The position numbers were made by a program, and so were the translations under genes. A stretch of DNA of 22,555 nt from a virus: positions 1 through 22,555 of the IMG/VR virus record IMGVR_UViG_3300023196_002416, one strand, 5' to 3'. This document shows positions 299-19,788 of this stretch, piece after piece. The notes under the pieces are model-generated. The model was not told the origin of the DNA. It saw only the letters and a program-made list of their open reading frames with translations, and searched no databases. Numbering within the stretch: the stretch's first letter is position 1; each line of letters opens with the position of its first letter.

Positions 299-553
299 TT
301 AAGGTATTGTAGTAGTGGTTGTTGGTTCTGGTAGAGACTTTAATGCAATATCTATAAAATTAACACATTTATTGGTAGATTTAACTCGCACCTCATTAGT
401 ATAATCTGGAACTAAAGAAGTGGTGTAACCATTCAATAATGAAACTTTACTTACGTTTATTTCAAAAGCAGTTTGAAAACCATCAACATCTGAATATAGT
501 TCAAAGTTACTGGTGTCAGTACCTGCAGTAGTTAGTGTTAATAATACAGTCAT
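299..553 (-). CDS. Stand-alone copy of the fibre N-terminal module
   Basis: This is an 84-aa protein if translation starts at the ATG at 551-553, which sits 2 bases after the upstream stop. An upstream in-frame ATG at 568 would overlap the preceding gene and adds only MLSII. The sequence is almost entirely the module shared with the genes at 1-295 and 3479-6259: a hydrophobic first strand (MTVLLTLTTAG), then NFELYSDVDGF, LLNGY and a Cys near residue 63. It ends directly after a PTTTTTIP linker, so the domain that normally follows the linker is absent. It may be a free capping or adaptor subunit, or a remnant of a longer fibre. The family function is unknown to me. Confidence 0.72.
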   Translation of the reverse strand: MTVLLTLTTAGTDTSNFELYSDVDGFQTAFEINVSKVSLLNGYTTSLVPDYTNEVRVKSTNKCVNFIDIALKSLPEPTTTTTIP

Positions 554-555
554 AA

Positions 556-870
556 TTATGGACAGCAATTATTGTTAATATTAGTTATTTGATTATTTAT
601 ATCAATTATTTGTTCTTTCATTGCAGCAATATCTTGAGTGTTTTGAGCTTGTTGAGTTTGTAAATCACAAAGAAGAGCATCTATTTTTGATAGTGCAACA
701 TTTAATGTATCACAAGCTTCTACATTTGAACAAGGGGTTGTGGGCCCATCATACACAACTGTGCTTGACAAAGGTCCATTTGTTCCACATGAATTTGTAG
801 AAGAGTTACATCCGCAAGGACTATTTAAAACTACACCAGTGCAGCAAGGGTTTACAGGTAAGTATGCCAT
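556..870 (-). CDS. Small Cys-rich protein with C-terminal coiled coil
   Basis: This is a 104-aa protein of unknown family. The first half is rich in Cys, Gly, Asn and Ser (CC near residue 9, CGC near 20, further Cys to about 53). The second half, about residues 55-100, is helical and shows heptad-like spacing of hydrophobic residues (ALSKIDALLCDLQ, then QDIAAMKEQIIDINNQI). It ends with a CC pair. The helix suggests a trimeric or dimeric coiled coil, as found in fibre stalks and attachment proteins. The start is 12 bases from the preceding gene and the stop is 2 bases from the next start, so it is co-transcribed with the collar-domain protein. I infer a minor virion attachment subunit. Confidence 0.65.
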   Translation of the reverse strand: MAYLPVNPCCTGVVLNSPCGCNSSTNSCGTNGPLSSTVVYDGPTTPCSNVEACDTLNVALSKIDALLCDLQTQQAQNTQDIAAMKEQIIDINNQITNINNNCCP

Positions 871-882
871 TTTGTTTTTATT

Positions 883-2088
883 TTAAGGTATGTAAATTAT
901 ATAATATCCTGCTCTTCCAGGCTGATAGTTTTGATGAGAGTCTCCTCCACCTGTATTGTCTACAGATACTACAGTCTCAACCGTTTGTGTTATTTGATCC
1001 CAAGGACTAGTTGACCTTACAGGTGGGCCTGATACACCTATACTTGGTAAATTACCTAAATGATTAAATTTTATAGCATATGTAGCATCATTTCCACTTG
1101 AACACCAGTTACTTAAATTTTGAGTTGTGGATGTACCACCATCATTACATTGACCTCCGCCAGGTGATGGTTCAAATAATTTATGACTGTGAGTGCTTGG
1201 AGTTAATGCTGATTGTGCAGTAGCTCCGTGAAAATGACTAGGAATCTGTTGTGTTGTTAATATAACATTATTTGATCCAAGTGCATTAAAATTACCCCCT
1301 GTCCAAGTAGGGTTACCTTGTATATTAGGATTAACAGCATCATCATATCCAGCATTTCCTAACATGTCCGTAACTCCAACTATCACTCTTCCTCTTAAAT
1401 CAGGTGTAGCATTAGTACCATTACATAAATATATATTTGCCCAATCACCTAAACCTGCTCCACCTCCATCAAAGTTACTTAATGGTCCGTAGTAAGCTGT
1501 CACTGCATAAGGAACCATTCGATTACTAATCAAAGATGCACTAGGATCACTTTGTATATAGCTCTCAATATAAGAATTAATATCTGAAATTGCAACATAA
1601 GTGTTAGCTACATAGTCTATAAAACTAGTTAACTGTTCTGATACTTGACAAAGTTTATTAATTACAGCTTGCAATACAGCTTGTGTGTCAGTGCTTTCTG
1701 TAGGATCATCAGTAGCACCTGGAACAGTAAGACATCCTAGTATATATGGATCATTAGGTATTTCTTCTTCTATTACTACAATTGACTCTTCTATTTTACA
1801 AAGAGCTTGAGTGATAGCTGTTAGATAATTATTAAGTGAAAGAGGACTACAATCAGGTAACTCACTGTCCACTGTTGGACAAATAGAACTAGCTGGAATT
1901 ATAGGTAATATACCTGTTCCATCAAGTGTAGAACTTAAAAAGTTTATAATACTTTGCTCTATGAAAGACAAAGAATCTCCGTTTTGAATTCCTAGAAGTG
2001 GTACATCCACTCCTGTATATTTAACGCATTTGTCTGAAGTTATTTCAGTACATCCGTTATAGCAATTTGAGCAATTTTGTGTTGACAT
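883..2088 (-). CDS. Tail-collar-domain short tail fibre / receptor-binding protein
   Basis: This is a 401-aa protein. Residues 1-60 are a Cys-containing N-terminal module (CSNCYNGC, then KCVKYTGVD), probably the virion-anchoring end. Residues 85-185 are helical and likely form an oligomeric shaft. From about residue 192 there is a phage tail-collar domain (Phage_Collar type) with the hallmark W..IYLCNGTNATPDLRGRVIVG around 216-238. Beyond it lie two HxH motifs (H285-F-H287 and H300-S-H302) and the typical terminal GGDSHQNYQPGRAGYYIIYIP around 381-401. Collar-domain fibres such as T4 gp12 bind host surface glycans and hold metal ions through HxH motifs. Receptor binding is therefore a family-based inference, while the domain itself is clear from the sequence. 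Confidence 0.85.
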   Translation of the reverse strand: MSTQNCSNCYNGCTEITSDKCVKYTGVDVPLLGIQNGDSLSFIEQSIINFLSSTLDGTGILPIIPASSICPTVDSELPDCSPLSLNNYLTAITQALCKIEESIVVIEEEIPNDPYILGCLTVPGATDDPTESTDTQAVLQAVINKLCQVSEQLTSFIDYVANTYVAISDINSYIESYIQSDPSASLISNRMVPYAVTAYYGPLSNFDGGGAGLGDWANIYLCNGTNATPDLRGRVIVGVTDMLGNAGYDDAVNPNIQGNPTWTGGNFNALGSNNVILTTQQIPSHFHGATAQSALTPSTHSHKLFEPSPGGGQCNDGGTSTTQNLSNWCSSGNDATYAIKFNHLGNLPSIGVSGPPVRSTSPWDQITQTVETVVSVDNTGGGDSHQNYQPGRAGYYIIYIP

Positions 2089-2106: not shown

Positions 2107-3486
2107 TTAGCAATCGTTGGTTAAATCTGAATCATTAGTTAAGCCTGCTTGATAATAAAATTTTCCGTTGCAGTTTTTTATTTTATCACCACTTACACCT
2201 ATTTCTGTTATATTTTCAAAACTTTCAGTATTTACAACTTTAAAGTTATCTAAATCAATTGATGGATCCCACCATTCAACTCCTAATTCTGCTGCAATGT
2301 GATCAATTCTACAGAATAAAAACCTTGTAGAACAGGAATTAGTTCCTATTTGAGTACAACATGTATTACCATTATATTCTGGAGGCATATCTGACATATT
2401 ACAACCACCTGCAAAAAGTAATCCAACTAAAACAGTACCTCCACCTGATGATAGTTTTGCATACACTGCAGAACCTGAGTCTCCTGGTAATCCTGGATTT
2501 AAACATCCTGGTTGTTGAGAATTTGGTGTATCTGCATCTGGTCTTATTACACTTATACAGTCCTCAAATTCACATACTACTTGTTGACCTTGAACATTAT
2601 AAGCAATCTGCGCCATAACACCCACTGCATTTACTCTAAGCCAACATCCAGTGTTAGAATCACCCATAGGTCCTGAAGTTCTACCTGAAAAAACTATTTG
2701 TGGATTATCATTAAATAAATTATTTAATTCTGCTGTTGTAGCAAATCTAGGATTATTAGTTCCAATAGATACCCCAAGAGGTTTCCAAGAATCCAAATAA
2801 TCAACATCATTTTTCTCAACATTAAATGCTGCAGCATCTACTTTATTTGGTAATACAAGACCTTGTGACATTGTTGTAATTGGTACATATCTTACACTTC
2901 TACCTATTCGATTGCCAGGTGCTTGCATAGTACTATCTTCTCGTCCTTGAACTACATGGTTTATATTAACGTAATCATTTTTTATCTCACCAGTTAATAT
3001 ATTTCTTGCTGAAGTAAAGCTAGCATCATTAACAGTAACGTGATTATTAGTAAGTCCTAAAATTGCACCTGTTCCTGTATCTTTTACAAAAGTTCCTAGT
3101 GTTCCAATCTTTTCACTATTATTAGTGGAACTAATAGTAAGGCCTGGTTTAAGAGGTCTCATAAAATCTCGGTTGCCAGTACTTGCTCCACCAAACCAAC
3201 CTCCACAATTTGCACATGTAATAAAAGCATAAGTTTGACCTTCTTCAATTACATCTATTTTAATTGTGTCATCACCAACTATAACTTTATTTGGTAATAT
3301 TTCATTTTCAGACAATTGATCAATAGGTTTTTTTTCTAGGAATGAACATATAATTGCAGGCTCTCCTGTAGCTTTACCATTAGATACCTTCTCACCTAAT
3401 CCAACAGATAAAAGTTTAGGGTTGCTCCTTTTTATCTCTTTTATTTTATCTTTTATTTCTTGTGTCAGTTTCATACTATTAATCAT
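2107..3486 (-). CDS. Trypsin-like serine protease, Nal1-type, in the fibre cluster
   Basis: This is a 459-aa protein with a complete chymotrypsin-fold catalytic signature. GTLGTFV at 128-134 is followed by LTNNHV with His149, then VDAAAF with Asp217, then GLPGDSGSAVY with Ser337. The N-terminal 20-85 region (SVGLGEKV, a conserved FLEKKP, VIEEG) resembles the leading domain of bacterial and plant Nal1-like proteases. It has no signal peptide and carries about 14 Cys, including a cluster at 361-392. The start at 3486 overlaps the upstream stop by 8 bases; an internal ATG at 3474 would leave a 4-base gap and is nearly as likely. Its place among fibre genes suggests a virion-associated or fibre-processing protease. 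The substrate cannot be read from sequence. Confidence 0.87.
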   Translation of the reverse strand: MINSMKLTQEIKDKIKEIKRSNPKLLSVGLGEKVSNGKATGEPAIICSFLEKKPIDQLSENEILPNKVIVGDDTIKIDVIEEGQTYAFITCANCGGWFGGASTGNRDFMRPLKPGLTISSTNNSEKIGTLGTFVKDTGTGAILGLTNNHVTVNDASFTSARNILTGEIKNDYVNINHVVQGREDSTMQAPGNRIGRSVRYVPITTMSQGLVLPNKVDAAAFNVEKNDVDYLDSWKPLGVSIGTNNPRFATTAELNNLFNDNPQIVFSGRTSGPMGDSNTGCWLRVNAVGVMAQIAYNVQGQQVVCEFEDCISVIRPDADTPNSQQPGCLNPGLPGDSGSAVYAKLSSGGGTVLVGLLFAGGCNMSDMPPEYNGNTCCTQIGTNSCSTRFLFCRIDHIAAELGVEWWDPSIDLDNFKVVNTESFENITEIGVSGDKIKNCNGKFYYQAGLTNDSDLTNDC

Positions 3487-6259
3487 TTATTTCTGATTCA
3501 AACCTAGTCCATATTGTTCTAACCTCTCCATCAGGTGGTCTTTCACTAGTGGTTGTTGTTATTACTTTAACTATAAACCCATCACTAATTCTACAACCTG
3601 GTCTACTTGCAGCACCAGTAGCAAACTCTGAATTTTCATCTCCAGTAATTGGAGCTTGGAAGTCAGGAACTTTTGTCCATAATTCTGTGTTTATATCTAT
3701 ACTCCAAAGTCCTATTGTTGATGATTGAGAATTAATTCCAGCACTAATATATATAGAGTTTCCAATCATGGAAATATCTTTAGCACCACTTACTCCTTGT
3801 GGTAATTCTATTGAATTTTCAAACAATCCAGTTGCATAATCCCATTGAGTTATATACCATGGGGTGTTAAATCCTAGCTCATCTTGTCCAATAGCTATTA
3901 ACTTATTTGGCGTTACACCATCTGTTTTAAGTGTAATTAATGTTTCTCCATTTAAAATCCATCCAGTATTTTCAAACTTCTGAGTAATTAACAATTCATT
4001 ACTTCCATCAACTATTTCTACTTCTAAAGTTTTGTTGTTAAGTCCACCAACAACACGATCAAAACTAACCCATTTAGTATCACTGATTACACTAATTCCA
4101 GTTACTGTAGGGAAGAAATTTGGTGTAGTATATTCTGTACGTTCCCATTCTAAATTAATAGGTACACCAGTGGTAGATAGATCATATGAATATCTTGTAA
4201 ATCTAGAACGTTCACCTTCTGATGCAGGGTTACATTGAGTTATAATAAAATTGTTACTTATTCCTAAACTAGGAATATTAAAGTAACTAGCTGAAGGTAA
4301 TGATACTTCTTCTAGTGCAGCTGATACAGGATTCCAAGCATATATTCTTTTGAACTCACCACTGTCATTTGTAGAGCTACATGTTCCTATATTATCATTA
4401 CAGCTTTCAGGGAATCCATCTGCAAATATTCTTAAACATTCAAAAGAAGTTGCTGGACAACCCATTCCTATTGGAGTTCCATCACCATCGTTTGTTGATA
4501 AAATAGTTAGTGATGTAAAGTCTTGAGATCCTGTAACAATAACTTCACAACTAGCATATCCATAATAAACTTCTTCATCTGTGTAAATCTCATTTCCATT
4601 TTGAATACTCATATTACAACCAATCACTAATGATAGTGTAGTGTTTGATGAGTTTGTAAGGAATCTAAAATTATCACCAGTATCCATCACAGATATTCTT
4701 ATTGGTATATTGTTAACTGGTATTGGAAAATCTATAATATAATCAGCTGCTGGATTATCAAGATTAGTAGAGTCGTTTCCAGATAATACAGCACATTCAA
4801 AAGGTTGTCCTTCTTCAAAACCAGGTATAATAATTCCACACTGACTTACAGTAAACTCATTACCTGGACCAGGTGAGGCCATACCTTCAGGTAGATTAGT
4901 AGATGCTGTTAATTCTAACCCTTGAAAGTTAAAAGATACTGGAGATATATTTTCACCTCTTGAATCTACAACTGAAGGAAGAATAGTTGGAATACAACCT
5001 GTCACCTCATCTTGATTTAGAATATCTACATTTGCACAATTACTTGATGAAGATAACCAAACTATTCTATCTGGTATATTATATGCAACAGTAGCAATGT
5101 AATTTGGTTCTTGAGTTATATCATATACATCTCTTGTTTCTGGCTGTAATACTTGCAATGTTCCATTTAATCCCCATAGAGGCATATTGAAATTTGGTCC
5201 GAAGACAAACTCAGGTACACCAATATTTTGTAATTTTATTTCTGGTTTTAGTAAAGATAAAGCCAACCATTGATTCTCGTCTGTACCTTCTGGAGGCAAT
5301 CCAACAAATTGTTTTATGTAATTTCCATTAGTATTCTCATCAGCAGGAACTAGTGGATTACCAGAAACTCTAAGAGAAACAATAACATTATTATCAGTAG
5401 TAATAAATAATCCTAGATTTGAATAATATCCAAAATTATTTTGCGTAAATTTAGTTGACTGCTCTGCTATTTTATTACTTCCTGTTAATGTTAAATTACC
5501 AGGTGATGATATATCCCAAGAACAAACACCAACATATGCAGATTCTTCTATTTTATCACTAAATCCAACAAGTAATGTATTATTGTCAGCAGTTACTCCT
5601 ATTGATTGTACTTCATCTGAAAAGTTTTGAGGTAATGTAGGTGTAACTATAATAATTTCTCTAACATAAGATAAAGTTGGAGGAGTTGTTGAATGATTTA
5701 TATCCCACTCTCTAATAAATCTATCACCAGTTCTCGCATCTGTTAGTCTACGTCCAGAAATCCATAATTTATCTGAAGTAGTACATATAGCTTTGTCAAT
5801 ATCGTTATTATCTGAACCATTTTCAAAATCATTAGGTACTAATATTACACTTGAAAGTCCTGTAGAAGGATCAAAAGTAGCTATTTGTCCAACATCACCA
5901 CCGTTTGAAGACCATAAACATTCAGTAAGTGTAGGAGGTTTGTCTGTACTGGTAGTAGTTGTTGTTGGTGCAGCAGTTGTTGTAGTTGTAACATTACAAA
6001 GAATGGATCCAGCAAAGTCACAATTTGGTGTAGCACAAGTATAAATGTCTGTTGTAAAAGGTGTACACGAAGCACTTAAATCTAATAATCTAACAGTTAT
6101 AGTTCCATCAGGAGCAGTTACCTCATATCCTGCCAATAGATTAGCTTTAGAAACAGGACCAGTTGTATTAAACGGTGTGGTAAATCCATCAACGTTAGAA
6201 TACAAGTCAAAAGGACCTGAATCTGCACCTGCTAAACTTAATGTTATAAATATTGTCAT
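3479..6259 (-). CDS. Large modular fibre protein: shared N-module, Thr linkers, two propeller-like halves
   Basis: This is a 926-aa protein. Residues 1-75 are the cluster's shared N-terminal module (SGPFDLYSNVDGF..PF). A Cys-rich stretch and two Thr tracts follow (about 91-105). About 112-400 repeats short strands such as TTSDKLWISG, TADNNTLLVGFSD and TTDNNVIVSLRV, the style of beta-propeller blades. About 400-640 is a different beta-rich, Cys-containing segment. About 645-895 again reads like propeller blades (KRIYAWNP, ISDTKWVSFD, GNSIYISAG, GLWSIDIN). A third short Thr tract lies near residue 900, followed by a short tail. No catalytic motif is seen. Repeated propellers on a phage fibre suggest ligand or glycan binding at the host surface; this is inference. 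Confidence 0.72.
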   Translation of the reverse strand: MTIFITLSLAGADSGPFDLYSNVDGFTTPFNTTGPVSKANLLAGYEVTAPDGTITVRLLDLSASCTPFTTDIYTCATPNCDFAGSILCNVTTTTTAAPTTTTTSTDKPPTLTECLWSSNGGDVGQIATFDPSTGLSSVILVPNDFENGSDNNDIDKAICTTSDKLWISGRRLTDARTGDRFIREWDINHSTTPPTLSYVREIIIVTPTLPQNFSDEVQSIGVTADNNTLLVGFSDKIEESAYVGVCSWDISSPGNLTLTGSNKIAEQSTKFTQNNFGYYSNLGLFITTDNNVIVSLRVSGNPLVPADENTNGNYIKQFVGLPPEGTDENQWLALSLLKPEIKLQNIGVPEFVFGPNFNMPLWGLNGTLQVLQPETRDVYDITQEPNYIATVAYNIPDRIVWLSSSSNCANVDILNQDEVTGCIPTILPSVVDSRGENISPVSFNFQGLELTASTNLPEGMASPGPGNEFTVSQCGIIIPGFEEGQPFECAVLSGNDSTNLDNPAADYIIDFPIPVNNIPIRISVMDTGDNFRFLTNSSNTTLSLVIGCNMSIQNGNEIYTDEEVYYGYASCEVIVTGSQDFTSLTILSTNDGDGTPIGMGCPATSFECLRIFADGFPESCNDNIGTCSSTNDSGEFKRIYAWNPVSAALEEVSLPSASYFNIPSLGISNNFIITQCNPASEGERSRFTRYSYDLSTTGVPINLEWERTEYTTPNFFPTVTGISVISDTKWVSFDRVVGGLNNKTLEVEIVDGSNELLITQKFENTGWILNGETLITLKTDGVTPNKLIAIGQDELGFNTPWYITQWDYATGLFENSIELPQGVSGAKDISMIGNSIYISAGINSQSSTIGLWSIDINTELWTKVPDFQAPITGDENSEFATGAASRPGCRISDGFIVKVITTTTSERPPDGEVRTIWTRFESEIND

Positions 6260-6306: not shown

Positions 6307-8256
6307 TTAAGGTGCTGTTGTTGTTGTAGTAACTGTTGAATTACATCCAGATATAATTTCATCTTGTATTGTTTGTGCATCTGAACTACTATTCCAAGAT
6401 CCACCAGTTTGTTCTGCTAGTTCTCTCCATGGGTATATACCAAGAAGAGCTCCTACTGTATTTGGAAATGGACCACCTTGTAAATCAACCCCTGGACCTA
6501 GAACAAAATATTTAATTCCATTTGCATTAGCGTATGTTATCATATCTTGTATTCCATTCCAAGTAGGTATATCAAAATAATCTCTAGTGCTTCCTGGAAA
6601 GTTATCAGTTATTATAATAATATATTTTGCAACATTTGACCTAAATGCTCCTGCAAAATTTGATTCTGTAATTAATTTAGAAACATAGTCACAAGGCTCT
6701 GGCCCAGCTGCACCATAACCCATTCCTACACAACAGTTGAAACCATTACATGAAGGATCTACTCCTCCATTTAATTTTTGAAGTTGTGTATTAAATGCTG
6801 CTTGATTACTATCATTAAATTTTTCCCAAACAGTACTTACAATATCTGTTCCAATATTTCCGGTAAGTATTGGGTTTAGAGATTCAAAAGGTCCTTCCAC
6901 TAATCTTTGAGATTCTGGCAATAGTAAATAATCAACACAATTTGCATAACGTGTTTCCTCATGGGTATCAAGAAGTACTTGATCACTAGTAGTTAGAGCT
7001 AATCTATACCCACCAGCACCAGCTTCAGTAGCAATTGTATTTACAATACCTGCTACTCCTGCTTTTACATCTTCGATTTCTTCAGCCATAGAAGCTGTAT
7101 AATCAAATACAAATGCTACATCTAATCCATCTATACATGGAATATCAACAGGAGGACTGCTAGATGTTGTAGTAGTTGTTGTAGGAGCAGTTCCAGCACA
7201 CACATAAAAATCAATAATTACTCCTACAACCTGTGTTCTAGATATATTACTAAGTACTAATTCTTCAATACCACCACTTTCTGCTGTGATGATAGTTGCT
7301 CCACGATGACTACTTGGGACATTTTGTACACCTTGTATATTAACTTGATTTGCATTTACTTGTATTGTTTCGTATGTAGGATCTACACCAGGTGTCGTGC
7401 AACAGGACATCATTTGCTCACCTATAATTGGAGTCAAAGATTCTATAGATACAACTTCCATCTCACCAAGCTGATCTCTATTATATCCCCATGAAGCTGA
7501 AGCAAATGCTATACTGTTTATAGGAGGATTAAACTGCATAGTTAATACTCCATTAACTTTTAATGAAAAACTTGCACGTGTGCTAGTATTTGTTCTATTT
7601 ATAAAATATCCATCACATAATTCATCTGTTCCTATGGGACTATTATCATGTTGTGTAAGACCAGTATATGTTGTAGTTAACACTACACCATTAGATAATG
7701 TTTTTGTTCCATTTCCTGTTACTGCATTAGGAAAGCCTTCTGGATTATTTGTATTAAATGGTTCGTCACATGAAGCAACTGGAGGGAAATCTCTAACTTG
7801 GAAACATCCTTCCACTCTACAATCTGGATCTAAAGTAGTTGTACTTGTAGTTGTTGAAGTTGTTGGTAGTACAGTGGTTGTAGTTGTAGTTGTACTTGAT
7901 GTACTAGTTGTAGTTGTAATTGGGTTTGGTACCACAGTTACACAACATGTAGTAATTTCACACACTGTAGGTGTATTACATCTACTAACACAACCAGAAG
8001 TTAATCGAATTACTTTAGCAGCAATATCATTAACAGAAATTGTCCCAGCATAACTAGGATTGCAATATTTAAAAGTTAAAATACGTTTGTATGCTAACAA
8101 CTGAGAGATAGTGTACGCAGGCACATCTCGACCTAACATAAATACAACATTGTTGTACATGTTATTGCCAAGCTCTGCAAGCTTACAATCTATACTCTTA
8201 AGTAAGTCAGGTATCTTATGACAGTCCTGACAGTTTGTTAATCTAGGTGTTAACAT
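6307..8256 (-). CDS. Fibre protein with von Willebrand factor A domain and poly-Thr linkers
   Basis: This is a 649-aa protein in four parts. Residues 1-105 are a Cys-rich helical domain (CQDCHKIPDLLKSIDCKL, YKRILTFKYCNP), of a type I associate with virion-anchoring ends in Bacteroidota phages. A long Thr/Ser linker covers about 113-142. Residues 143-355 are beta-rich with few landmarks (QFNPPINSIAFASASWG). After a second Thr linker (359-364), residues 377-640 form a von Willebrand A domain: DVAFVFDYTASM gives a metal-site motif D385-x-T387-x-S389, and YIIIITD gives T550-D551. The protein ends in a Thr tract (TVTTTTTAP). VWA domains mediate metal-dependent protein or matrix adhesion, so host-surface attachment is the likely role, by inference. 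Confidence 0.8.
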   Translation of the reverse strand: MLTPRLTNCQDCHKIPDLLKSIDCKLAELGNNMYNNVVFMLGRDVPAYTISQLLAYKRILTFKYCNPSYAGTISVNDIAAKVIRLTSGCVSRCNTPTVCEITTCCVTVVPNPITTTTSTSSTTTTTTTVLPTTSTTTSTTTLDPDCRVEGCFQVRDFPPVASCDEPFNTNNPEGFPNAVTGNGTKTLSNGVVLTTTYTGLTQHDNSPIGTDELCDGYFINRTNTSTRASFSLKVNGVLTMQFNPPINSIAFASASWGYNRDQLGEMEVVSIESLTPIIGEQMMSCCTTPGVDPTYETIQVNANQVNIQGVQNVPSSHRGATIITAESGGIEELVLSNISRTQVVGVIIDFYVCAGTAPTTTTTTSSSPPVDIPCIDGLDVAFVFDYTASMAEEIEDVKAGVAGIVNTIATEAGAGGYRLALTTSDQVLLDTHEETRYANCVDYLLLPESQRLVEGPFESLNPILTGNIGTDIVSTVWEKFNDSNQAAFNTQLQKLNGGVDPSCNGFNCCVGMGYGAAGPEPCDYVSKLITESNFAGAFRSNVAKYIIIITDNFPGSTRDYFDIPTWNGIQDMITYANANGIKYFVLGPGVDLQGGPFPNTVGALLGIYPWRELAEQTGGSWNSSSDAQTIQDEIISGCNSTVTTTTTAP

Positions 8257-9038: not shown

Positions 9039-10145
9039 TTAAGCACATACGTTGTTATCAACAACAGTTCCTAGAGCAGCTTCTAATATTGTCTCCATAA
9101 GAGCAGCAATACCACTAGTAGTAGCGTTTGGTACAGCGAGAATCACAGTGCTATCTTGCATTATGTAATCTCCCCATTGGTAAGCAGACTTATCTAATTG
9201 ATTAAATCGGATGTAGTAGCTATCGTAAATGGTTCCATCAGTTACATAAGACTCAAAGTTCTCATTGTATCCACCTTTTCTGTATAGAGATTTTAAGTAT
9301 CCAGCTTGGTAGCTATAGAAGTTTTTCTCTAATTGCTTAAATTCATCAGCAGTTCCTGATGGATAGTTTGATGTTTGTGTCACTGTAGCAGTTGCAACAA
9401 TATTACAAGCATCAGCAACAATAAAGTCAGCAGTTGTAGCAGGTCCATCGTATACAAAAGTACTGAAGTACATTCTGTCATATTCCCATGGGAATGCTGC
9501 AACATCACAAGGCTGTCCATATTTAGTTAATGGCTTACCTGTAATTCTAAGTGTAGTTCCACCAACATTAGCAAATGTAAAGAAACTATTAAAAGAAACA
9601 TTCTCTGGATTATTTCCTGGAGCTTGTTGTTCTAATTTAGTAATAATTGAGTTAATTAATGCATTTACATCTACATCAGTACACACATCACCACCACATT
9701 CACAACATGGAGCTTGTACAGTTACTGATCTAGTAAATCCGTTGAAGTAAAGAGTGTCAATGTAAGATGAGTGAGCTCGTAATGTTAAAGTTACTACTTC
9801 ACCACATTGTACTTTGAAACCAGTTACATCAGTGATTTGATTTGTTACGGTAGCACATCCTGATACTTTGTACCATTCAGTTACATTTGAATTACAAGAT
9901 GCTCCAGCTGTTGGACATCCTTTAATTTTGTCAGACCTCTTAGATCCTTGAAGATAGGTATTTGCTCTACCTTGTGCTACATAGAAGTAAGGGGATGCTG
10001 CTATATTTGCAGCGGTTGCAAGAGCATAATCACTCTTGAAAAACCCTACTTGACCTGCAGTAAGATCTTGAGTCGAACCAGAGCTAGGGAGTGCGGTTTG
10101 CCCTACTGGCACCACGAATAACGTGGTTAATGAAAAATCAGACAT
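9039..10145 (-). CDS. Major-type virion structural protein (unassigned)
   Basis: This is a 368-aa protein. It starts MSDFSLTTLFVVPVG and continues with TQDLTAGQVGFF, SPYFYVAQGRANTYL and KRSDKIKG. There is a Cys cluster around residues 148-156 (CCECGGDVC) and a hydrophobic C-terminal segment (STVILAVPNATTSGIAALMETILEAALG). There is no enzymatic motif. The regular beta pattern, the absence of low-complexity stretches and the strong terminator right after it fit an abundant structural protein such as a tail tube, tail-sheath-like or head-tail component, but I cannot choose among these from sequence. It is preceded by a 29-base gap after the 243-aa connector-like gene. Confidence 0.7.
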   Translation of the reverse strand: MSDFSLTTLFVVPVGQTALPSSGSTQDLTAGQVGFFKSDYALATAANIAASPYFYVAQGRANTYLQGSKRSDKIKGCPTAGASCNSNVTEWYKVSGCATVTNQITDVTGFKVQCGEVVTLTLRAHSSYIDTLYFNGFTRSVTVQAPCCECGGDVCTDVDVNALINSIITKLEQQAPGNNPENVSFNSFFTFANVGGTTLRITGKPLTKYGQPCDVAAFPWEYDRMYFSTFVYDGPATTADFIVADACNIVATATVTQTSNYPSGTADEFKQLEKNFYSYQAGYLKSLYRKGGYNENFESYVTDGTIYDSYYIRFNQLDKSAYQWGDYIMQDSTVILAVPNATTSGIAALMETILEAALGTVVDNNVCA

Positions 10146-10174
10146 ATTTTATGATTTAAGGTTAATATTAATTT

Positions 10175-10906
10175 TTATTCATTTGTTTGTATTCTAAACT
10201 GTGCACTTTGCACAGCAGAACTGTTTTCTGTATACATTGCAAGATTTTGAACTGTTAAATCTAGAAGTTCATCTTCTAAATATTCTTCAAGCTCACAATT
10301 TTGATTAGTGGATGGAGTACCGTCCATCATAATATAACCTGTTTTGTTAATATAAACAGGATATCTCATATACATTATGTAAATATCTTTGGGAGTAAAT
10401 GTACCATCAGTATATATACTAATAGAATTAGATGATATAGCATTTAAAGTTTCTTGATACTCAAAACTAGGCTTGTAGTGATCATTATTAAGTAATAGAG
10501 ATAAGTCTCCATGTTTACTTAAATCTTTGTTGATCCATATCTTACGATCTTTGCACCTACCTTTATCTGCTAATACGTAACTATCTACATAAAACATATA
10601 TTTAGGTTTCAGTAAAGTTAGATCAGCATCCCATTGATGTAGTTCTTCATTAGTTTCCACTAACGATAATGGTTGATTTTTAAAATCTATAACTAAATTT
10701 TGTAAATCTTCATACCTTTTTTTAAAAGCGTCAAAACCTAACTTGTTAGGAATTGCAAAACCATCAACTTTTTGTTTTATCAACTTAATCTGAGCCTCAT
10801 TCAAAGCTAAGATTTTGTCTTCTAATTGAATCTGTTGATGCTCGTTAGTTGATAGTTTATTTAGTTTTTGGTCTATTTTGTATAATAAACTATCTACTGG
10901 TATCAT
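10175..10906 (-). CDS. Head-tail connector / ring-like structural protein
   Basis: This is a 243-aa protein. Residues 1-50 are helical and charged (SLLYKIDQKLNKLSTNEHQQIQLEDKI as a coiled-coil-like opening, then ALNEAQIKLIKQK). A mixed alpha/beta domain (WDADLTLLKPKYMFYVDSYV, PKDIYIMYMRYPVYINKTGYI) follows. The acidic helical end (CELEEYLEDELLDLTVQNLAMYTE) resembles the C-terminal helix of phage connector and adaptor proteins ("L..YL.DEL.DL..."). Similar proteins occur downstream of the capsid gene in crAss-like and related Bacteroidota phages, where some form rings under the portal. The start codon overlaps the stop of the 52-aa gene (ATGA), which implies coupled translation. The connector role is inferred from position and this end motif. 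Confidence 0.68.
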   Translation of the reverse strand: MIPVDSLLYKIDQKLNKLSTNEHQQIQLEDKILALNEAQIKLIKQKVDGFAIPNKLGFDAFKKRYEDLQNLVIDFKNQPLSLVETNEELHQWDADLTLLKPKYMFYVDSYVLADKGRCKDRKIWINKDLSKHGDLSLLLNNDHYKPSFEYQETLNAISSNSISIYTDGTFTPKDIYIMYMRYPVYINKTGYIMMDGTPSTNQNCELEEYLEDELLDLTVQNLAMYTENSSAVQSAQFRIQTNE

Positions 10907-11061
10907 AATAATGCTATTTTTTTAGCTACATTAGAAGTATAACATAAAGTATTATCTTCATCTATTTTACAATTTCCTTTTTCAAATTCATCTAAAAGGA
11001 TTTTTTTTATTCTTTTATCAGTGTTTGGATATAGCTTTTCAAAATCTTCTTTAAAGCTCAT
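10903..11061 (-). CDS. 52-aa small charged protein between connector genes
   Basis: A short gene runs from the ATG at 11059-11061 to the TGA at 10903-10905 and encodes 52 residues. It opens MSFKEDFEKLYPNTDKRIKK and is highly charged, with a helical look and two Cys (31, 40). It begins 1 base after the TAG of the 322-aa gene and overlaps the next start by the ATGA arrangement. The spacing on both sides is what makes it convincing. No family is recognised; a small assembly or accessory protein is possible. Confidence 0.75.
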   Translation of the reverse strand: MSFKEDFEKLYPNTDKRIKKILLDEFEKGNCKIDEDNTLCYTSNVAKKIALL

Positions 11062-11062
11062 A

Positions 11063-12031
11063 CTACACCGAAGCTAGCTTTTTTGTTTTTAATTTTCCTT
11101 CTAATGTCAATAACTCATCTTGGTTATCTTCATCAGCTAAGAATTTAATTAACTCTTCTTCTTCTTTTGCTATTTCATACTCACCTTCATAGACTCTTCC
11201 ATTTGGCTTAACTCTATATATTGAGTGTTGTATAGCTTGTTTAACTAAATCTTTAATATGGAGTAAATTTTCTTTCATGTCAGCAAATCTTGTAAACACT
11301 TCAACAGGATTTAATCCTTTAAAGTTACCAGACTGTACTTCTGACTGCTTTAACATATTGTCTACTTTATTGTATACAACTTCTTCTTTTGTATCATCCG
11401 TAACAGGAAGACCTAAAAGTCTTGCAACTTTTTTCTTCTTTTCAGGAGTCATACCATCAAACTTAATAATAGCTTTATTAATTAGTTGCTTTTTCTTAAA
11501 CACTAAAGCATTTTCAATATCATCATTCACTACATAAAACTGTGTATCTGCAGGAAACTCTCCTCTTTGCCAAGCTTGATAGGAAGAAGCAATAGTTGGA
11601 TGAACTCTTAACCAAGCAAATGCTAATTCTTGCATTGCCATTGTTAGATCGTAATAGTTATCACCATCTAAAAGTTTTACAGGTTGAACATGTAACTGAT
11701 CATTTGTTCCAGTGGATAATCCATAGTTCCAAAATTTAGCTCTTGGTCCTAAATCAATATCTCCTAAAACAGATTGTAATTTATCTCGTAATTCTGTAAC
11801 TCTTTGAATTTCAAGTTCTTTTTCTGTTGGATCTTGAATTCTTTTAATGTATCCAGCATTAGGATCTAGACCTGTTCTATATTGACCATCTAGTTCCTTA
11901 TAAGGATATTTAAAAACTCCAGTTCCTGGAATTCGTGTCATTCCCTGTTGTGCAAGATTACTATCCATCGTTTGCAACTGAGAACTATTGTATTCTCTCT
12001 TTATAGTAGAGATTTTTCCTAATTTACCCAT
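11063..12031 (-). CDS. Conserved phage protein downstream of the capsid gene, unknown function
   Basis: This is a 322-aa protein. The N-terminal part (about 1-90) is polar and helical. A conserved-looking block follows (KFWNYGLSTGTNDQLHVQPVKLLDG, about 99-123) and then a helical region. About 190-230 (KAIIKFDGMTPEKKKKVARLLGLPV) looks like a small helix-extended-loop-helix or SAP-type element. The C-terminus is acidic with a short beta stretch (YRVKPNGRVYEGEYEIAKEEEE, then FLADEDNQDELLTLEGKL). I recognise this layout from the gene following the capsid gene in other Bacteroidota phages but know no proven function. It is most likely a minor virion or head-completion protein. Confidence 0.65.
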   Translation of the reverse strand: MGKLGKISTIKREYNSSQLQTMDSNLAQQGMTRIPGTGVFKYPYKELDGQYRTGLDPNAGYIKRIQDPTEKELEIQRVTELRDKLQSVLGDIDLGPRAKFWNYGLSTGTNDQLHVQPVKLLDGDNYYDLTMAMQELAFAWLRVHPTIASSYQAWQRGEFPADTQFYVVNDDIENALVFKKKQLINKAIIKFDGMTPEKKKKVARLLGLPVTDDTKEEVVYNKVDNMLKQSEVQSGNFKGLNPVEVFTRFADMKENLLHIKDLVKQAIQHSIYRVKPNGRVYEGEYEIAKEEEELIKFLADEDNQDELLTLEGKLKTKKLASV

Positions 12032-15181: not shown

Positions 15182-17767
15182 TTAGTTTTTCTTATCTCTA
15201 CCTTTTGCATTCATTTTAGCAACAGCTAGATCGTTTGCTTGATTGTCACGAGCTAATTTAATCTTTTCTCTTTCAATCTGTAGTTTCTGTTGAGCTAAAC
15301 TATTCTTTGACATAATATCAGCCATTTTACCATCATAGTTCTTCTGAGCTGTAGATTGTTGTAAAGCTAATTTTTCTATCTCTAATGAATCTGGAGTACC
15401 AGAATTATCTAAATCAGCACTCGCACCACCTTCTTTAGACATTGCATTTATCATTGCAATTTCTTTCTTGTTTATACGATCTAGTTCATTTTGATAATTT
15501 TCATTTGCTGTTTTTGCAGCAGTCATTTGTTCTGCCTGTTGCATTTGAGCTTGTGCAATTTGACCAGCTTGTTCTTGTTGCTGTTGTTGCATTTGCATCT
15601 GTTGCTCTTGCTGTTGAACTTGTCTATCTCTAAGATCTTTGAAAGTTTTCTTCATCTCTCTCATAGACTTAGTACTATATAGTTCAATAACATCATAAAG
15701 TGTACCACCATTTTGTATAATAGCTTGTGACAGTTGTCTGAGCTCATTAAACATCTGAGTGTCTTCTGGTCTATTAGTTAAGAATACTTTAAGGTCTCTA
15801 AGTTTTAATTCTGTTCCATTCACTTGAACAAATGCAGACTCTCCTTCATTAGTTATATATGATAGTGTAGATTGAGGTTTTGTGCTTTCTGTATACAAAG
15901 AAGCATCTACAATAGCTTGATACAATTGACCCATTACATACTCGTGTGCAATAAATAGAGGCTCTGTTTGAGAGTAACTTTGTTGCATGGCAGTTTGAGT
16001 ACCTGTAGCTGTTTCTGATGCAGATATAGATCCCATACGCTGTCTAGACATACCTATAAGTTCCCAACATTCTAGTTTCATTTGTTGAGCTAGTGTATAT
16101 CTTGATTGTATTTCTTGTGTACGTGTAAGATCTAATGATGTAAACTGATTAAATGAGCTTGGAGCTTTTAAGTTCTCTGGACTATCATCTATAAATACTA
16201 CACCACGTTCTCTAGCTTCCATTTCCCAAATATCAAGTGCATCTTGCGCATCTCCATCTTTAGGAACAGGTATATGTCTAAGTGACATCAATTGCACCTT
16301 ACCAACTTCTTTTTCTAGAAGCTTATATAACTGGTTCATACAGACGTTATAAATAACTTGGAAGGGTTTCATTAGATCTACTAGAGATCGTGCCTCTGTG
16401 TTCTTTACTTCGTACGTAGTACCTATAATAGGACAGTAATCTAGCAATGAATATGGTTTTACATGATATATGTCTGGTCCAATCTTTGTTCCTTGATACC
16501 ATTGATTAATCCATCCCCATTCTAAAGATATTTGCGTAGGCATGTCTCCTGACTTATATGATTCATTTACAAGTGTAGACTGCTCATTGCCCATTTCATC
16601 TGTATAAATAAGCTTACCTATTTTCTTCTTAGATACCCAATAACTTTGTATCACTACATACTTATATCCAAATGAAGAAACATTATCACTTAATCCTAAG
16701 AAATCTTGAAGACCATCATTGTTTTCTTTCATTTCACTTTCAATTAGCATACGTGTCTGTAATACTAAAGGATCATAAGTGTCATAGTTAATTGAATCTA
16801 TACCAGGATCAACACTAGAGTTACCTAAGTTAGATTCTCTTACATTTATAAGACCATAATCTTGCAATGAAGTTCTTAAATGATCTATCTCATCTTTTGT
16901 AAGATCTGGAAACGCTTCTATAATTTCTGATATTTCCATAACCTTCACAGTACCAGCAGCATACGCTCCTTGTTTTCTACCTGAAGGATCAGATATATAT
17001 TTTTTATCTGGAGTTGTTAAAAACCAAGTGTTTTTTGGATTAAGAACTTCTACATTATATCCCACTTTAGAATTATCCTCATATATATGATAAAACTCTC
17101 TTGCAGATATTAATAAGTCTCTAAATGCATCTTCACTCTTTTCTTTCAGGTTGAAGTCTGCCTTTTGACATGTAAGTGTGTGATTAGCCCATTTTTCAGC
17201 TACTGAAGTGTAAGAGTCTAATTGATCTTTAACTTGTTCAAATGTTATCTTATCTAAGTCTTCTTCTGCTATTTCTTGTCCAGATATTGCAGCTTTTGCC
17301 ATTACCTGTTCTTTAACTTGAGATATTACATAAGCTTTTAATGTATCAGTTTTAAACTGAAGCTCTTGAGCTTGACTATCATCATCAAACGCTTTCACTC
17401 TAAATGAATCTGGTCTCTTGGATATTTCTCCTACAAGTTCATTTACAGGTGTAGTCATTATTGAATAATGCTTTACATAAGATGGAAGACTTAAATCTTG
17501 CTGTAACATATCTGTAAAACTTTTAACTTCAGGTTCATCAATTAAGAAATCTTCCGTTCTTAATATACCTTTCATTAAATCATAGTTTTTTACAAACGTT
17601 TCTCTATTCTTTATGTATTCTGCGTAAGCTCTGTTTGCGAAGTAATCCATTGTATTCTTGATCCAACTGTCATCTTTCTTTTGCTTTTCAGTTTTAAACT
17701 GATCAGGAAAGATGTTTAGGTAAGCATATCTTATGTTTTCTTCTTTTGTGTATCTTATAATTGCCAT
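15182..17767 (-). CDS. Portal protein with Gln-rich and calcium-loop-like C-terminus
   Basis: This is an 861-aa protein placed right after the terminase. The first 700 residues match the layout of large portal proteins: helical N-terminus, mixed wing/stem region with YVSKKKIGKLIYTDEMG, and the crown-side helical part with ERGVVFIDDSPENLK and SASETATGTQTAMQQ. The latter is typical of portals (a TATE/SA.E.ATG segment near 610-625). A Gln-rich stretch covers about 715-748 and a helical tail follows. Residues 785-796 read DLDNSGTPDSLE, a DxDxSG..D..E calcium-loop pattern. The start ATG shares one base with the terminase stop (TAATG), so translation is coupled. The portal forms the dodecameric DNA channel at the head vertex. 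Confidence 0.93.
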   Translation of the reverse strand: MAIIRYTKEENIRYAYLNIFPDQFKTEKQKKDDSWIKNTMDYFANRAYAEYIKNRETFVKNYDLMKGILRTEDFLIDEPEVKSFTDMLQQDLSLPSYVKHYSIMTTPVNELVGEISKRPDSFRVKAFDDDSQAQELQFKTDTLKAYVISQVKEQVMAKAAISGQEIAEEDLDKITFEQVKDQLDSYTSVAEKWANHTLTCQKADFNLKEKSEDAFRDLLISAREFYHIYEDNSKVGYNVEVLNPKNTWFLTTPDKKYISDPSGRKQGAYAAGTVKVMEISEIIEAFPDLTKDEIDHLRTSLQDYGLINVRESNLGNSSVDPGIDSINYDTYDPLVLQTRMLIESEMKENNDGLQDFLGLSDNVSSFGYKYVVIQSYWVSKKKIGKLIYTDEMGNEQSTLVNESYKSGDMPTQISLEWGWINQWYQGTKIGPDIYHVKPYSLLDYCPIIGTTYEVKNTEARSLVDLMKPFQVIYNVCMNQLYKLLEKEVGKVQLMSLRHIPVPKDGDAQDALDIWEMEARERGVVFIDDSPENLKAPSSFNQFTSLDLTRTQEIQSRYTLAQQMKLECWELIGMSRQRMGSISASETATGTQTAMQQSYSQTEPLFIAHEYVMGQLYQAIVDASLYTESTKPQSTLSYITNEGESAFVQVNGTELKLRDLKVFLTNRPEDTQMFNELRQLSQAIIQNGGTLYDVIELYSTKSMREMKKTFKDLRDRQVQQQEQQMQMQQQQQEQAGQIAQAQMQQAEQMTAAKTANENYQNELDRINKKEIAMINAMSKEGGASADLDNSGTPDSLEIEKLALQQSTAQKNYDGKMADIMSKNSLAQQKLQIEREKIKLARDNQANDLAVAKMNAKGRDKKN

Positions 17768-19788
17768 TATGAAAAAAGTTTGTTTTTCTTTCTGTTAAAA
17801 AGTCCTCGTGACTCTGTAAACATCTTATTTTTTTTGTTATTGTTAAGCATAGATGTTAATCTAATATCTTGCTTATCTCCTACCTTTCCTAAGATGGGGT
17901 CAAGCTTCATAGCTAGCGCAATTGCTAACTCAGCTGCAATGATTCTATCAAAGTTACCTGATTCATTATATTGTATCATTTCTTCTAACAATACAGGATC
18001 TAGTACTTTAGCCATACCTTTTGTTTGAGATATAACCTCTCCATCATCATTAGTTTCAGAATGTATTATTTCTTCTGTATATTTTTTTAAACATCCGTGT
18101 AAGAAATCTCTAATCTTTTCTGAAGACCTATGTATACCATAGTCACGTCTAACTGTAGTGGTAGGAACTATTTCTTTTAGCCAAGTTGGCTGTCTTTCAA
18201 GATATTGAGAGTCTCCTTTACTAATCATATGATCTATAAAAGAAATCTCATCATTTTCACAAAGCGCTCGTGCATTAAAATACTTTATTAGGTAACGAGC
18301 TTGGTTTTCCCATGTTTCTTTCTTGTCTGGTCTGGCACAATAGCTAGCTACAAACATATCCTGGTACTTATCACCAGATATAGCATGCATACGCTTATAT
18401 ATGTACACAGAACCTAATGATGAACTATATGCTGATTTTCCCTGTCTATAAGGGTCAATACCTGCAACATATAGGCCATATGGAGGGTTTTCCATAGGGA
18501 ATTCATAAATAACCACAGGAGCATCTTTCATATCAGTATGCTTTAGTGGAAAGTTTACAATAGGTCTCTTATCTGTAAACTCATGTTTTACACCTTCTCC
18601 ATCATCGTATAATATAACAGGTGTACCTGTTCTTTCATTCTCTATAAGTCTAGACTTTTGACGTTTAGCTGCACTTATATCGAATATATTAGTGTCCTCA
18701 TTTAAAAATATATCATCTACCTCTTGTGGATAATACATCTTTTCTTTTAGATATGCAAGTCTATCACCTGCTTTCTTTAGACGCTCTAAATTATCATTTG
18801 TTACTTTATCTGCTTTCTCTTCGTTAGACACCATCATTGGTATCTTGTTTAATACAGAACTTTTAGGCTTTTCTAGAAAGGCACCAAGACTACTATCTTC
18901 CTTAGCTTCCATTCTATATTTATGTGAGATGAATAATCCGTGAATACGTCTTTCATCTTTTGCATTGTTGTATGTAAGAAAGTTAAAGTTCTCTACATCA
19001 AACATTAAAGACTTAGCATCCATAAACTTCTTCATATCTCCACCTGTTCCTGTAAGAATAGGACTACAACCCCAACCAAATGGTGTAGTAAATCCAGGTA
19101 TTGCTGCCTGTAATCCTCTTAAAAAGCTTCCTTTACCTATTTCATCAATAATTAGTCTACGAGGTTTTGTACCTGCAATAGCTTCCTCATTATTACCATC
19201 ATCTAAGTTACGAATTAAGATCTGTGAAAAAGGTATTCTTTCTCCACCTCTAGTTTTTATACCTAGAGTTACTTGATTCTTCCAGTTATCTTCTACTCTC
19301 TGCCACCTCCAAGCTTTAGGTAAGAAGTTTAACCCTTTGTCTATTTTATCTGTAATTAACTTAATATCAGGAGCATTTAGTCCTGCAATAATGTTTTGAG
19401 AGTTCTCATCAAAGGTTGCACCTTGAGCAATGTAGCTTGCTTCTATAACAGACTTAGCAAAACGTCTAATTCCTAGAATAACTAGTCCTTTCTTTTCTTT
19501 ATGTGCTCTATCTATTTCATTTGTTACAAGCCACTCGTTATCTCTAAGTAGTGGATTAGCATACTTTTGATTAATTCTACCATATTCATCTATGATATCT
19601 ACCTCTGTATGCCAAGCATTTAAGTGCCAGTATAAGAATGGATTAATATAAGTACCATCCATCATGCATCCGTTCATGCATAGTTCTTTATGAAAGTTGT
19701 AAAAAGATTTATACTCTTCAGATTCTTTATCAGGAAGTCTCTTCTGATTAATCATCCAATCTTTATAGTCTATACTTTTTATCTCCAT
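17767..19788 (-). CDS. terL: Terminase large subunit (packaging ATPase-nuclease)
   Basis: This is a 673-aa protein. The ATPase part has a variant Walker A GIRRFAKS (106-113), Walker B RRLIIDE (210-216, with the catalytic Glu at 216) and motif III LTGTGG (245-250). The C-terminal RNase H-like nuclease shows VAGIDPYRQG with Asp445 and a second acidic site at ALCENDE (Glu511); the third acidic residue is probably in the VLDPVLLEE segment. The enzyme docks on the portal, cuts concatemeric DNA and pumps it into the procapsid. The start shares one base with the stop of the 113-aa gene (TAATG), and the stop shares one base with the portal start. Walker A has Ala where Gly is usual before KS. Confidence 0.96.
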   Translation of the reverse strand: MEIKSIDYKDWMINQKRLPDKESEEYKSFYNFHKELCMNGCMMDGTYINPFLYWHLNAWHTEVDIIDEYGRINQKYANPLLRDNEWLVTNEIDRAHKEKKGLVILGIRRFAKSVIEASYIAQGATFDENSQNIIAGLNAPDIKLITDKIDKGLNFLPKAWRWQRVEDNWKNQVTLGIKTRGGERIPFSQILIRNLDDGNNEEAIAGTKPRRLIIDEIGKGSFLRGLQAAIPGFTTPFGWGCSPILTGTGGDMKKFMDAKSLMFDVENFNFLTYNNAKDERRIHGLFISHKYRMEAKEDSSLGAFLEKPKSSVLNKIPMMVSNEEKADKVTNDNLERLKKAGDRLAYLKEKMYYPQEVDDIFLNEDTNIFDISAAKRQKSRLIENERTGTPVILYDDGEGVKHEFTDKRPIVNFPLKHTDMKDAPVVIYEFPMENPPYGLYVAGIDPYRQGKSAYSSSLGSVYIYKRMHAISGDKYQDMFVASYCARPDKKETWENQARYLIKYFNARALCENDEISFIDHMISKGDSQYLERQPTWLKEIVPTTTVRRDYGIHRSSEKIRDFLHGCLKKYTEEIIHSETNDDGEVISQTKGMAKVLDPVLLEEMIQYNESGNFDRIIAAELAIALAMKLDPILGKVGDKQDIRLTSMLNNNKKNKMFTESRGLFNRKKNKLFS

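Follow-up and report, generated by a model that had tools for sequence, protein, structure and literature searches.

Enzymes known from phage tails act mostly against polysaccharides and peptidoglycan. In the Cellulophaga crAss-like phage phi4:1, gp051 and gp052 are coded in the tail cluster between homologues of the structural genes that flank the locus described here; they are annotated as pectate lyases and, according to the record, were found in virions by MS/MS. However, these are annotated polysaccharide lyases rather than proteases and have no sequence relation to the protein considered here. The latter shares with plant NARROW LEAF 1 (NAL1; PDB 8pmg, 8hau, 7y77) a NAL1 leading domain with a chymotrypsin-fold domain behind it. 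Work on ZmNAL1a identified NAL1 as an active protease that works inside plant cells on TOPLESS-type corepressors (PMC12915138), whereas the present protein, with approximately 17% identity, is phage-encoded and tied to tail fibres and a C-terminal tag. Streptogrisin-type S1 bacterial proteases (PDB 2sfa, 2sgp) match it in the fold of the catalytic domain (E 6e-7 to 5e-6) but are free secreted enzymes without the NAL1 leading domain. Among viruses, the best named match to the family consensus by tblastn was the putative serine protease ORF 25-326 of Aeropyrum coil-shaped virus (ACV), at a weak E value of 0.1. The PHROG 20754 'protease' profile was matched by all 48 homologues scanned (best E 2e-22), and in our view ORF 25-326 probably belongs to this PHROG. 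ACV differs in being an archaeal virus without tail fibres, and no Thr-rich fibre is annotated beside ORF 25-326. A survey limited to the open literature found no paper linking crAss-like phages with such a protease and no description of the C-terminal tag and fibre-partner setting in phages; we regard these as new, and the NAL1-type enzyme class itself as known.

Genomic setting, active site and fold of the protease

The window (the whole stretch of DNA analysed, 22,555 nucleotides) is a 22.6-kb fragment with 33% G+C from a crAss-like phage; its major capsid protein matched PF23898 (E 9.5e-31). The large terminase subunit (TerL; 17767-19788) matched phrog_6681 (E 8e-78), and the portal, capsid and virion proteins resembled their counterparts in Leptolyngbya phage Lbo-JY46 and Cellulophaga phage phi4:1. 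The closest cultured phage by TerL was the cyanophage Lbo-JY46 (39%), followed by Cellulophaga phages (30%); the window TerL is thus nearer to Lbo-JY46 than to Bacteroidota crAss-like phages. From this closeness, cyanobacteria may be among the hosts of this phage group.

All structural genes of the window lie on the minus strand. The protease gene (2107..3486, minus strand; stop codon at 2107-2109) encodes 459 amino acids and sits between a 926-aa Thr-linker fibre (3479..6259, minus strand) and a collar-like tail fibre directly downstream (883..2088, minus strand; phrog_8763, E 8e-16; phrog_8469, E 3e-11; also supported by synteny), as the earlier note had described. The 926-aa partner fibre comprises an N-terminal anchor-like domain, a Thr-rich linker, a predicted propeller head (weak Kelch matches, below cut-off), a Thr-rich stub and a C-terminal tag. 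Another fibre (6307..8256, minus strand) has an N-terminal domain, a Thr-rich linker and a von Willebrand A (VWA)-like head, the VWA_4 match being below cut-off. Downstream of the collar fibre are a small conserved protein that served as a synteny marker (556..870, minus strand) and a small protein (299..568, minus strand) whose anchor-like domain, according to the comparison among related loci, is common to the N-terminus of the partner fibre. A domain of about 90 aa (GPFxLYSNVDGF...), occurring alone or at the N-terminus of Thr-linker fibres, is present in several copies per genome (299-568 and 3479-6259 in the window, and in related loci) and is probably a shared fibre anchor. Several Thr-linker ORFs terminate suddenly in a brief Thr stub (TVTTTTTAP, PTTTTTIP; 6307-8256 and 299-568 in the window), a pattern that would fit breakage or recombination of fibre modules at linkers.

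The catalytic triad proposed in the earlier note was confirmed codon by codon: His149 at 3040-3042, Asp217 at 2836-2838 and Ser337, within GDSGS, at 2476-2478. All three residues were present in 111 of 111 distinct full-length homologues from IMG/VR, down to approximately 30% identity, so the triad cannot be a product of chance, and no complete homologue lacking His, Asp or Ser was found. The start codon may be Met5 (3474) instead of Met1 (3486), because homologue alignments begin at about residue 4. Pro331, six residues before Ser337, was conserved in 181 of 188 alignment rows. The description 'trypsin-like' applies to the fold only, as a conserved Pro occupies the position of the trypsin-type Asp189, a correspondence obtained by counting back from the Ser only.

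The NAL1_N-like leading domain (protease residues 9-81; 3244..3462, minus strand), which had also been recognised earlier, was only suggested by the single window sequence, whose match to PF25608 (NAL1_N) had an E value of 0.022, below its cut-off. For the family it was well supported: a profile of 48 homologues found the NAL1 crystal structures in the PDB at E 1.3e-6, with the leading domain through the catalytic His aligned (8hau/8pme) and GDSGS falling in a second, weak segment. The window protease alone found no match in a single-sequence search of the PDB, and the INPHARED annotated phage collection contained no homologue at normal thresholds; at the sensitivity applied, the family was not found in any cultured phage. 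Since such single-sequence searches (PDB, Pfam, INPHARED) were weak or empty, the case for family identity rests on profiles. An AlphaFold2 model built from an 86-sequence alignment reached a pLDDT of 88.7 and a pTM of 0.91, with strands and a helix in the leading domain; an earlier model from a 10-sequence alignment was discarded (pLDDT 44.7). With this model, Foldseek matched rice NAL1 over the whole length (> 400 columns, best E 1.7e-16). The best 34 PDB matches were all NAL1 chains, followed by streptogrisin-like bacterial serine proteases, and the nearest viral model was an unnamed protein of Virus NIOZ-UU157 (TM 0.89). Because the predicted structure matches rice NAL1 over its whole length, the protein is assigned to the NAL1-type chymotrypsin-fold proteases with a Ser-His-Asp triad. 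The predicted fold is that of NAL1/S1 enzymes, in which His and the GDSGS Ser are in register with NAL1 and the register of Asp217 is taken from family conservation.

A relic that merely binds would hardly be expected to have retained the whole triad, and we therefore take the protease to be catalytically intact and probably active. A NAL1-fold binding domain devoid of activity is a very improbable reading, given a triad that is invariant across the 111 distinct sequences to about 30% identity and a plant relative that is itself an active protease (ZmNAL1a, PMC12915138).

IMG/VR was searched twice by alignment, with 122 and 252 candidate stretches confirmed; the 80 best loci from each search were retained. 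Homologues were found in crAss-like contigs, with the PF23898 capsid in 21 of 50 records (many of them fragmentary), and also in records of up to 322 kb without this capsid. The carriers are mostly uncultured phages, some of them crAss-like. When a collection in which each prokaryote species is represented by one genome was searched by pattern, the only match (locus L082) lay on a short contig assigned by binning to Bifidobacterium breve, probably as phage contamination. A defence-system reading was rejected, the PADLOC match being only a chance one.

Fibre linkage, fusions and the C-terminal tag

The protease was coded within the tail-fibre cluster with conserved synteny, and the usual order in close relatives with flanks in view was anchor/VWA fibre, propeller fibre, protease and collar fibre. 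The survey of poly-Thr neighbours proposed in the earlier note yielded a clear answer, in that homologues lay nearly always directly behind such a fibre. Among ORFs of at least 150 aa, a gene with a Thr-rich linker stood immediately upstream of the protease in 77 of 85 distinct homologues, versus 117 of the 842 remaining ORFs of these loci (14%; Fisher p 4e-49, uncorrected for relatedness).

Although the window protein is not a fusion, its counterparts in other lineages are covalently joined with Thr/Ser/Pro linkers and adhesive or hydrolytic domains. The fusion partners included Gly_rich_2 (L076), DUF285 with PKD (L055, L064), a leishmanolysin-like (M8) metalloprotease domain below cut-off (L082:2-1939) and repeated adhesin-like units, which in L181, L183 and L207 come with a segment resembling the head of the window's VWA fibre (6307-8256). 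Two further loci (L049:10924-12870, L060:9971-11926) have a fusion of the protease with a phosphatidylethanolamine-binding (PEBP) domain. The PEBP family includes serine-protease inhibitors, and this domain could be a built-in regulator of the protease. Two or three proteases stood in tandem in L041, L049 and L080, and the three copies in L080 (7008-8360, 8299-9666, 10001-11293) were divergent.

The protein coded just upstream of the protease ends, after its Thr-rich stub, in a conserved peptide of the approximate form G-V-N-T-I-[FWY]-x-x-F-[ED]; in the window this tag is VRTIWTRFESEIND (3482..3523, minus strand), a candidate docking peptide for the protease. In 69 distinct tags, the consensus consisted of G at -3, V/P/I at -2, N/R/K at -1 and T at 0 (68/69), followed by I/V/L, an aromatic residue, two variable residues, F/Y and then often E/D. 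The strict tag was present in 76 of 95 distinct upstream proteins versus 11 of 1,934 other ORFs, and only one of these 11 matches (L178) was genuine by inspection. About a fifth of the upstream proteins thus had no strict tag, and several of these showed looser variants. When proteases were clustered at 70% identity, the strict tag was found in 36 of the 49 clusters with an upstream gene and the looser form in 43. A doubled tag occurred in L056 and L107. Of the two tandem proteases of L049, the one that precedes the other has a tag variant at its own C-terminus.

Two trivial sources of the tag were considered. The tag codons varied and the distance from tag to protease start was mostly 25-51 nt; this variation in codons and distances ruled out a ribosome-binding artefact and indicated that selection acts on the peptide. 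The Thr-rich linker alone was also ruled out as a source, as the pattern matched only 5 of the 322 distinct Thr-rich proteins that did not belong to the upstream set; by position, these were three upstream genes in redundant loci, one internal chance match and L178. In L178, a fibre (9630-11294, plus strand) carries a genuine C-terminal tag, GIRTIYTHFEAL, with the collar gene directly after it and no protease in the locus; this orphan tag perhaps reflects protease loss or another partner.

Accessory distribution and weighing of explanations

The accessory status of the protease was assessed in 37 relatives anchored on the conserved gene p9, each with at least 9 kb downstream in view. The propeller fibre and the protease were both present in 16 of the 37, and neither was present in the other 21. 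On the p9 tree, this pattern needs only about two changes and behaves as a trait of one lineage, apparently lost once (L167); therefore, the co-occurrence of fibre and protease is not a test based on independent events. L171 has the two genes as a pair elsewhere in the fibre cluster. By the Nei-Gojobori method, which is crude and relied here on few substitutions, dN/dS was 0.24-0.57 for the protease (pairs of full genes) and 0.26-0.63 for the fibres and collar, versus 0.03-0.09 for the capsid protein and 0.00-0.11 for the capsid together with neighbouring head genes (MCP, p11, p10). The protease combines an invariant active site with a body that changes fast, which is what one would expect of an enzyme facing the host.

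This distribution led us to reject a general capsid or tail maturation protease of the phage group, to which the location of the gene within the late structural cluster might otherwise point. Most relatives that share the capsid, p8 and p9 genes lack the protease (21 of the 37 anchored on p9), and all of these lack the propeller fibre as well; moreover, the gene is not adjacent to scaffold or capsid genes, and it is fused to fibre heads in other loci. We therefore give a maturation role hardly any credence. Processing of a neighbouring fibre, one of three functions suggested in the earlier note along with host-surface digestion and carriage in the virion, is a more serious rival. During assembly the protease might cut the Thr-linker fibre, for instance within or close to the tag. 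The tag would in that case be its substrate, and no display for host digestion would be needed. The strict association of the protease with the fibre coded before it, the conservation of that fibre's C-terminal peptide, the joint presence or absence of the two genes and the aromatic residues of the tag, which a chymotrypsin-fold enzyme could cut, are all compatible with processing. However, removing a ten-residue tail has no obvious purpose, and the tag lies at the very end of the fibre, not between domains. A displayed enzyme agrees better with the adhesive heads that some of the proteases carry themselves, with the tandem copies, with the metallo-type protease fusion and with the fibre-like evolutionary rate. 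Fibre processing is thus kept as a rival that we consider unlikely, whereas the fusions, the tag and the evolutionary rate speak for carriage on the virion and digestion of the host surface.

The tag might instead be an inhibitory or product-like peptide that occupies the active site and silences a fibre-borne protease until the tail meets the host. The presence of one tag per protease in adjacent genes, and the PEBP-family domain fused to the protease in L049 and L060, would fit such an inhibitor; this function is nevertheless compatible with docking and does not exclude it, and as a separate explanation it seems to us decidedly improbable.

Proposed role at the host surface

The best explanation, which we hold to be somewhat probable, is a virion-displayed NAL1-type protease that is docked to its fibre by the C-terminal tag and cuts host-surface proteins. 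The propeller fibre, whose gene directly precedes that of the protease, would be anchored at its N-terminus and would present, past flexible Thr-rich linkers, the conserved tag peptide at its end. The tag is probably a docking peptide that binds the protease non-covalently, so that the enzyme would hang on the fibre by a tether. As the window protease has no anchor domain, its presence in the virion is argued from the tag and from the fusions in relatives. The more specific proposal of a tag-and-dock system, in which a fibre tag of diverse phages, placed behind a Thr-rich tether, captures a separately made NAL1-type protease to yield a virion-borne enzyme digesting host-surface proteins, is advanced tentatively, with slightly less than even confidence. 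Once the phage meets a cell, the protease on its tether would cleave proteins on or close to the host surface, such as S-layer, sheath, outer-membrane or secreted proteins, and this cutting could clear or loosen the way to the receptor, much as polysaccharide depolymerases do on other phages.

If this explanation is true, many environmental phages would also attack host-surface protein, by means of a family that has an invariant active site and occurs in > 100 phage contigs. The tag would provide a directly testable rule for the recruitment of an enzyme by a fibre, and searches for it could reveal further tag-borne cargo. The NAL1 fold, investigated chiefly in crops, would also be placed in a large viral reservoir.
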